DNA from: Candidatus Coproplasma stercoravium
Lineage (GTDB): Bacteria > Bacillota > Clostridia > Christensenellales > Borkfalkiaceae
Length of the DNA stretch: 64,000 bases
Assembly (NCBI GenBank): GCA_018713165.1
Contig: DVFR01000008.1
Coordinates: 1 to 64,000, forward strand
Direction of reading: 5' to 3'
Shown: positions 62,934 through 63,935 of the stretch, one piece after another
How positions within the stretch are numbered: the first letter of the stretch is position 1
Layout: each line of letters begins with the position of its first letter
Notes under the pieces: model-generated
Database searches by the model: none
Seen by the model: only the letters and a program-made list of their open reading frames with translations
Told to the model about the DNA's origin: nothing
Position numbers and translations under genes: made by a program

Positions 62934-62968
62934 TTAAAAAAATAAAGAGGCAGCCGCGCGGCTGCCTC
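62934..62968 (-). terminator. Terminator of the small-peptide operon
   Basis: GAGGCAGCCG-CG-CGGCTGCCTC (62947-62968) is a perfect stem; the reverse strand continues TTTATTTTTTTAAC. Confidence 0.9.
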
Positions 62969-63038
62969 TACGGTTTCTCGGACGAATTTTTACATTCGTT
63001 TTTAACTTAAATCAGTAAAATTCTGTTGTCGGCTGAAA

Positions 63039-63140
63039 TCAGTGAGCGCAGCCGAGAGCCACATAGGAGAGGGGTTCCACGCCGTAGTCGCTCTTGTTGT
63101 CTTCGCTTTCGATTTCATTAAGCATTTCATAAATACTCAT
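63039..63140 (-). CDS. Small paralogous peptide 1 (33 residues)
   Basis: Third gene of a three-peptide operon. It begins MSIYEMLNEIESED, an acidic, probably helical N-part, then ends YGVEPLSYVALGCAH, mostly uncharged with one Cys at position 31. GGAGG is 8 bases before ATG 63140. It has no signal peptide or obvious cleavage site, and no family is recognised. Nearly identical to peptide 2 (26 of 33 residues). It could be a modified-peptide precursor, a signal or a small regulator. Confidence 0.75.
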   Translation of the reverse strand: MSIYEMLNEIESEDNKSDYGVEPLSYVALGCAH

Positions 63141-63225
63141 AATTAAAACCTCCTTCAATAAGAGTTCTGCGTTTTTAAAAGGTAATAAAGTTCTTTGCCG
63201 CCCGTGCGGCGCCCGGCCCTGTTTT

Positions 63226-63327
63226 TTATCTTGCGCAGCCGAGTGCTACGTAAGAGAGGGGTTCAACCCCGTAGTTGCTTCTGTTCTCTTCGCTTTCGAT
63301 ATCGTTAAGCATTTCGTATATACTCAT
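63226..63327 (-). CDS. Small paralogous peptide 2 (33 residues)
   Basis: Middle gene, beginning MSIYEMLNDIESEE and ending YGVEPLSYVALGCAR. Differences from peptide 1 are conservative (Glu9Asp, Asp14Glu, Lys16Arg, Asp18Asn, His33Arg), a pattern of selection on protein sequence. AAGGAGG is 7 bases before ATG 63327. Exactly 85 bases separate it from each neighbour. The single Cys at 31 is conserved with peptide 1. Confidence 0.8.
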   Translation of the reverse strand: MSIYEMLNDIESEENRSNYGVEPLSYVALGCAR

Positions 63328-63412
63328 AATAAAACCTCCTTTTCAAGGTCTTTGTATTCAATAATTTTTTTGTATTCGTTCGTTTTGTTCGGCCTCACGC
63401 CGAGCGCGGCTC

Positions 63413-63520
63413 TTATACTCTGCCGTAGGTGAGGGCGAGATAGACAAGGGGAAGATAGGCCATTTTGTTGTTTTCGGCTTCTTCTCTTTCTGCCTGCTGT
63501 ATGAGTTCGTTGAATATCAT
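63413..63520 (-). CDS. Small paralogous peptide 3 (35 residues)
   Basis: First gene, nearest the promoter. It begins MIFNELIQQAEREEAENNK and ends YLPLVYLALTYGRV. It is diverged but alignable: acidic N-part, then Pro-Leu-x-Tyr-x-Ala-Leu shared with the other two (PLVYLAL against PLSYVAL). No Cys. AAGGAGGT is 8 bases before ATG 63520. The hydrophobic C-part could insert in a membrane or serve as a peptide core. Confidence 0.75.
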   Translation of the reverse strand: MIFNELIQQAEREEAENNKMAYLPLVYLALTYGRV

Positions 63521-63551
63521 GGCGTTTACCTCCTTCTTATTCGTTGTTTCC

Positions 63552-63569
63552 ATCAGGTTCTCCCCTGAT
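63552..63569 (-). promoter_or_regulatory. Hairpin or operator at the peptide transcript start
   Basis: ATCAGG-N6-CCTGAT lies about 10 bases downstream of the -10, at the 5' end of the mRNA. Confidence 0.5.
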
Positions 63570-63578
63570 TTCGCTTAC

Positions 63579-63607
63579 AGTATAGCATTGCTGTTTTTGT
63601 TAGTCAA
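63579..63607 (-). promoter_or_regulatory. Strong promoter of the small-peptide operon
   Basis: Reverse strand: -35 TTGACT (63602-63607), 17-bp spacer, -10 TATACT (63579-63584). The rest of 63608-63906 is very AT-rich without a gene. Confidence 0.75.
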
Positions 63608-63906
63608 TAACATTTTAAAAAAATTTTAAAATTTTAAATTTGTTAATTGTTAACATTATTTTATGATGGCACCGATAAAAAATGTTAATTCAGAATTTTA
63701 AATTTCAAATTCTGTGAAAAGTTTTCACTATTTTTTAAAGTTAACATTTTTTTCACTTCTCTTATAAACGCCTTTTACAACTTAAAACAGATTGTTTGTA
63801 AAAAATATTTTTTTATCGGTTTGCCTTCCCTTTTTAATGGCGCGCCCGAAAAGCGTTTCATTGCCGTTTTACAATCATCGGGCAACGCCTCATTTAAAAT
63901 GCTTCC

Positions 63907-63935
63907 TTGACGGGACGGCATAATTACGCTATAAT
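63907..63935 (+). promoter_or_regulatory. Promoter of the gene at the right edge
   Basis: -35 TTGACG, 17-bp spacer, -10 TATAAT, 52 bases before ATG 63988. Confidence 0.7.

Follow-up and report, generated by a model that had tools for sequence, protein, structure and literature searches.

What is encoded by three very short genes that stand alone between a promoter and a terminator, and what defines the system to which they belong? The question is raised by an operon near the end of a 64,000-nucleotide stretch of Candidatus Coproplasma stercoravium DNA (contig DVFR01000008.1 of assembly GCA_018713165.1, positions 1 to 64,000 of the forward strand; hereafter the window). The original prediction had described three genes, each with a Shine-Dalgarno (SD) sequence, between a good promoter and a terminator, and all of these were found where it had placed them, on the minus strand. 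Comparison with related genomes indicated that the operon is almost certainly real and part of a genus-wide system of peptide loci. In these sequence comparisons the promoter region, which extends beyond the single promoter first described, is the most conserved part of this system and drives other peptide families elsewhere.

The operon as a whole (63520-63039) holds three open reading frames (ORFs) of 35, 33, and 33 amino acids (aa), all on the minus strand, as are the signals of the operon itself. Peptide 1 (MIFNELIQQAEREEAENNKMAYLPLVYLALTYGRV, 63413..63520) is transcribed first and belongs to family 11, while peptide 2 (MSIYEMLNDIESEENRSNYGVEPLSYVALGCAR, 63226..63327) and peptide 3 (MSIYEMLNEIESEDNKSDYGVEPLSYVALGCAH, 63039..63140), the last transcribed, belong to the main family, number 12. 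The peptides had been numbered from the 3' end, and the divergent one is in fact promoter-proximal. The SD sequence AAGGAGGT lies 6-7 nt before the ATG of all three genes (63528..63535, 63334..63341, and 63148..63155). The promoter, TTGACT-17-TGnTATACT with an extended TG (63579..63607), has 10 of 12 matches, and the intrinsic terminator AGAGGCAGCCGCGCGGCTGCCTCT (62946..62969) has a 10-bp stem followed by a T tract.

Several lines of evidence indicated that the ORFs are genes. Peptides 2 and 3 differ at 19 of 102 bases (81% DNA identity), with 2, 3, and 14 of the differences at the first, second, and third codon positions; on the face of the two sequences, this third-position bias is the mark of protein-level selection. 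Homologs with a conserved frame were present in relatives (72 of 93 genus genomes), and the ratio of nonsynonymous to synonymous substitution rates (dN/dS) was about 0.4 among main-family homologs and 0.14-0.74 in pooled close pairs across the eight measurable peptide families, below 1 in every one. Judged by these ratios, the eight families are under purifying selection and evolve as translated proteins. Both the search for homologs and the synonymous-to-nonsynonymous comparison had been proposed as checks, and both supported coding. Chance ORFs were ruled out by the codon-position bias, the genus-wide homologs, the dN/dS values, and the rarity of SD-led ORFs at random positions (see below). 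The core of peptide 1, PLVYLALTYGR, scored z 6.0 against the main-family core, and peptide 1 is thus related to the other two. The view that the three peptides are genuine, related to one another, under selection, and without a known family was therefore borne out by codon bias, homologs, and core similarity, and by the database searches below.

The history proposed for the three genes fared less well. Both main-family copies and peptide 1 were found in other species (G030 and G069, with a further member of the peptide 1 family at locus L062). Given this and the 81% identity of peptides 2 and 3, the duplication is older than the recent tandem event first suggested. The two spacers, between peptides 1 and 2 and between peptides 2 and 3, are indeed 85 nt each, but the meaning given to this was not upheld: gaps between peptide genes in relatives range from 40 to 250 nt, so the equal spacing is coincidental and was rejected as a signal.

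A search with the peptide 2 sequence found tandem homologs throughout the genus of the window, Candidatus Coproplasma. A main-family profile built from 40 members was searched against 93 genus genomes, nearly all of them metagenome-assembled (rabbit, chicken, and others), and the 72 genomes that it matched gave E values down to 1e-19. Outside the genus, no genome in a sample of 396 from the order scored better than E 0.0056. Absence from 17-21 genus genomes may reflect assembly gaps or divergence. The consensus is M-x(0-3)-[IL]Y[ED]xLNxx[DE]...YGVSPLSYVALNCAR, in which Y, L, and Y are invariant and V, P, L, and C near-invariant. AlphaFold2 predicted helices in the 33 residues of peptide 2 at positions 2-11, 13-19, and 23-28 with moderate confidence (pLDDT 74.5, pTM 0.32).

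The window peptides had no Pfam or NCBIfam match at E<=10 except a chance RodZ match (E 0.11), with no homolog of Sda, Spo0E, SpoVM, or MciZ among the matches, and ten accessory peptides had no NCBIfam match. PHROGs and the PDB sequence profile returned chance hits only, and Rfam returned no match. A phage or plasmid origin was rejected, as searches of viral contigs, phages, and plasmids matched nothing and the neighbours are chromosomal.

The TTGACT-17-TGnTATACT promoter is common to nearly all homologous loci. In the locus alignment, conservation reaches well past this core promoter; on that evidence the promoter is one element of a conserved module about 190 bp long, composed of an array of TGTTA/TAACA half-sites, a palindrome over the -35 element, intervening A/T tracts, the extended -10, and a 5'-terminal hairpin. 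The -35 palindrome, TGTTA-TTGAC-TAACA (63598..63612), is single in the genome of the window even when two mismatches are allowed. A second palindrome, TGTTAACAATTAACA (63641..63655), starts 43 bp upstream of it, and its arms were matched at at least 9 of 10 positions at exactly -43 in 61 of 66 module sites. Farther upstream, at offset -75 from the -35 palindrome, is a TAACA half-site (63683..63687) found exactly at that offset in 35 of 57 aligned module sites. Half-sites numbered 4.40 per site in the region -150..0, against 1.02 expected. In subsets of sites, TGTTA half-sites also occur at module offsets -124, -134, and -144, and these 10-bp steps suggest further regulator contacts on one face of the DNA.

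The distribution of the module follows the genus. The full promoter pattern was searched in 398 genomes of the family, 93 from the genus and 305 from other genera, and hits were counted by hand from the listing. With at most two mismatches, the module was found in 76 of the 93 genus genomes, mostly in one copy each; the 305 other genomes gave two 2-mismatch hits, both without the left palindrome arm, plus a 3-mismatch background. The module also occurred in some genomes that lack the main peptide family, and nine genomes had a second module; the second modules that were followed downstream stand in front of peptides of other families. No wider regulon of the palindrome was found: other exact TGTTA-N5-TAACA sites in four genomes were scattered singletons. 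Two singletons in the genome of the window are recorded here: one in front of a DeoR-type regulator gene, between its promoter and its SD (L212:2067, contig C17:19966), with no exact counterpart found in the close relative G030, and a lone one upstream of the promoter-like TTGACAAACAAAAAATTCATGTTATACT and of a gene for a lipoprotein-like protein of 598 aa (L213:4226, contig C23:82825).

The predicted mRNA starts with a 5' untranslated region that opens with cGAAATC and folds into a hairpin, in the window ATCAGG-GGAGAA-CCTGAT (63552..63569). The best-stem score was 5 or more in 71% of 66 sites, compared with 8% of mononucleotide shuffles, and these sites had 36 distinct stem sequences, indicating that the structure is kept while the sequence changes. 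This evidence consists of per-sequence statistics rather than a formal covariation test on an alignment. RNAalifold on MAFFT alignments gave no consensus for the hairpin, a probable effect of variable stem and loop lengths. A conserved module followed by a hairpin kept with changing stems might be expected if the RNA were the functional product and the ORFs by-products of a structured, highly expressed transcript. This is quite improbable, as each ORF has its own SD, changes concentrate at third codon positions, dN/dS is below 1 in eight families, there is no conservation in the transcript past the 5' hairpin, and no Rfam family was matched.

On the strand opposite to the peptide promoter, a TATG[AT]T-like hexamer is conserved (63660-63690 in the window), which suggests a divergent promoter sharing the palindromes. 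Were this element to make a regulatory RNA, the peptides might be small toxins of a type I toxin-antitoxin-like system. Such a divergent transcript would head away from the ORFs and not be antisense to them, RNAalifold gave no folding signal upstream (mean per-sequence z only -0.98), and the peptides are mostly acidic without a clear transmembrane stretch, so that a toxin-antitoxin pair is very improbable.

What lies behind the module varies. An SD-led ORF of about 20-48 aa was found within 170 nt downstream of all 68 distinct module sites (68/68), whereas a comparable ORF followed 3.1% of random positions and none of 18 other strong TTGAC-N17-like promoters of these loci. The main peptide family was the route by which about fifty of the 68 sites were first located; the 16 module operons without any main-family member are thus the independent evidence for the view that the promoter comes first. 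The peptides, mostly about 19-48 aa long, formed about 20 families by average-linkage clustering, a count that depends on the cut-off, and these occur in varying combinations as mosaic operons with 1-6 genes each. Family 11 (z 5.7) and family 13 share the main family's C-terminal core, which is weaker in families 7, 10, and 15 (z 2.3-3.9 across families 13, 10, 15, and 7); many families at the module lack it. One operon (L173, in genome G465) contains three cysteine-rich, two main-family, and one third-family peptide. The first three are tandem 30-aa peptides, MDMYxNLTQTCxxHCMNYC.., which are possible metal-binding or disulfide peptides.

Together these patterns raise the possibility, which we rate slightly below an even chance, that the module is a fixed, nearly single-copy expression dock at which the genus exchanges, duplicates, and invents short leaderless peptide genes. 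The promoter, not a protein family, would then define the system, and the locus would be of a new kind.

The genes around the operon do not provide a fixed partner. In a survey of 42 homologous loci, the commonest order was corA, a 139-aa exported protein, a SpoIIQ-like M23 gene, the peptides, a convergent GntR/aminotransferase (MocR-type) regulator, isocitrate dehydrogenase (IDH), ddl, and murF, the last two named by eye. In the subclade of the window the left flank is adenine deaminase (AdeC) instead, and in the chicken Coproplasma type the operon is flanked by an Fe-alcohol dehydrogenase (Fe-ADH) and a helix-turn-helix regulator. The recurrent neighbours were therefore GntR/aminotransferase, IDH, Ddl, MurF, CorA, M23, AdeC, and Fe-ADH. 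Because the operon is constant while both flanks change, it is a stand-alone operon, and a fixed functional neighbour was ruled out. In the window, a near-consensus promoter, TTGACG-17-TATAAT (63907-63935, plus strand), lies in front of the adenine deaminase gene, which begins at the end of the window. In most genus loci (L032-L073, clusters C0 and C4, e.g. L032:4441-5572), the gene for the 139-aa exported family (..NYYCSADLPYSVxLYGxxINLHICVxxxxVxVASPIIFGGY) immediately precedes the SpoIIQ-like M23 gene; the family had no Pfam or NCBIfam match.

The original prediction had noted no modifying enzyme or transporter nearby, and this was confirmed at larger scale: no radical-SAM enzyme or peptidase-containing transporter was among the recurrent neighbours of the 42 loci. 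This bears on whether the peptides are precursors of ribosomally synthesised and post-translationally modified peptides (RiPPs) or of pheromones, modified or processed by an enzyme and sensed by a receptor encoded elsewhere. Their short size, the tandem paralogs, and the near-invariant C-terminal Cys and terminal Arg of the main family agree with such precursors. PqqA and other very short radical-SAM substrates can have their maturase encoded at a distance, and in size and in the lack of a linked maturase the Coproplasma peptides resemble them. An unlinked enzyme is possible for Coproplasma, but there is no Pfam or NCBIfam match, and no crosslinking residues are conserved across the families. 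The Cys is substituted by Tyr, Asn, Ser, Met, or Leu among aligned paralogs, which rules it out as an essential modified residue, and a conserved leader with a variable core is absent. Taken together, a precursor role is unlikely. The earlier proposals of modified-peptide precursors and membrane-active regulators stand as candidates that gained no positive support, and the peptides were not unusually amphipathic.

Transcripts of the pneumococcal blp bacteriocin immunity region have a common, highly conserved promoter element that occurs nowhere else in the genome (PMC5295010). As in Coproplasma, a locus-confined conserved promoter element drives a set of small, variable peptides, although the Coproplasma locus is without a GG leader, immunity genes, a linked pheromone, kinase, regulator, or exporter. 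The blp peptides are also about twice the length of those in Coproplasma. In staphylococci, the psm-alpha and psm-beta operons encode tandem leaderless paralogs of 20-45 aa, each with its own SD. These phenol-soluble modulins are leaderless peptides exported by an ATP-binding cassette (ABC) transporter (PMC10941976). Coproplasma has the same tandem leaderless short paralogs with their own SD and, putatively, an exporter encoded elsewhere, but there is no sequence match, the main family is not amphipathic, and many unrelated families occur under one promoter. Two-peptide leaderless bacteriocins such as enterocin L50 are cationic tandem paralogs with linked transport and immunity genes. The tandem leaderless arrangement is again similar, while the Coproplasma peptides are acidic and have no linked transport or immunity genes.

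Fixed control with changing cargo, the pattern of blp and other bacteriocin and pheromone loci, and leaderless export, as in the phenol-soluble modulins, led us to favour, tentatively and by analogy, leaderless, exported competition or signalling peptides. A dedicated regulator probably reads the module. Such a regulator would be dimeric, bind the palindromes, about four helical turns apart, and switch the promoter strongly on or off, and the 5' hairpin would stabilise the message. The peptides, made without a leader, would be secreted by an exporter whose gene lies elsewhere, and their targets would be competing bacteria, kin that receive them as signals, or host surfaces. Roles of this kind would account for the turnover of cargo under a fixed control region.

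Several observations weigh against export. The recurrent neighbours of the 42 loci include neither an exporter nor an immunity gene nor a processing enzyme linked to the operon, and no GG-type leader was seen by eye among 134 distinct peptides. Most of the peptides are acidic, with a median charge of -3, unlike typical cationic bacteriocins. The main family is not specially amphipathic (helical-moment z 0.64, with 0.08 in family 11), clear amphipathicity being found only in families 5 and 15. Furthermore, the C-terminal core GVSPLSYVALNCAR of the main family is strongly conserved genus-wide, and a fixed partner inside the cell would account for this no less well than an arms race.

Because the main family is conserved, non-amphipathic, and acidic, an intracellular partner fits nearly as well as export. 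The peptides might be cytosolic microproteins whose hydrophobic C-terminal segment, itself conserved, docks onto a conserved partner, such as a kinase, a protease adaptor, or a sporulation or cell-envelope factor. In line with this, no signal sequence was seen, helices are predicted, and the core is conserved in the main family, common to family 11, and weaker in the other four families named above. The usual flank is the SpoIIQ-like M23 gene, and Spo0A (Spo0A_C) was found in 8 of 8 genomes tested, so that a sporulation role is possible. Sporulation microproteins of the Sda, MciZ, and Spo0E type are helical proteins of 30-60 aa in spore formers, Sda and MciZ being small regulators of Bacillus. 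The Coproplasma peptides differ from these in lacking any Pfam or NCBIfam match, in being restricted to the genus, and in forming paralog arrays with turnover of families. More generally, the core is missing from many of the families found behind this module, turnover of the cargo is high, none of the neighbouring genes is constant, and sister genera carry the SpoIIQ-like gene but not the peptides. On balance, an intracellular role is only slightly less likely than export.

Peptides as short as these usually escape annotation, and each family alone would be an orphan. As the promoter is the conserved part, it offers a key for finding all of the families, even those whose shortness or divergence puts them out of reach of homology search. 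If the exported reading is right and the peptides act outside the cell, they are an uncharacterised peptide arsenal or signalling system of gut Clostridia. If they act inside, they are a set of new microproteins under a shared switch, and the locus would then be without a close known kind. Either way, the locus may show the birth of short genes under a standing promoter, which would make gene birth directly testable.
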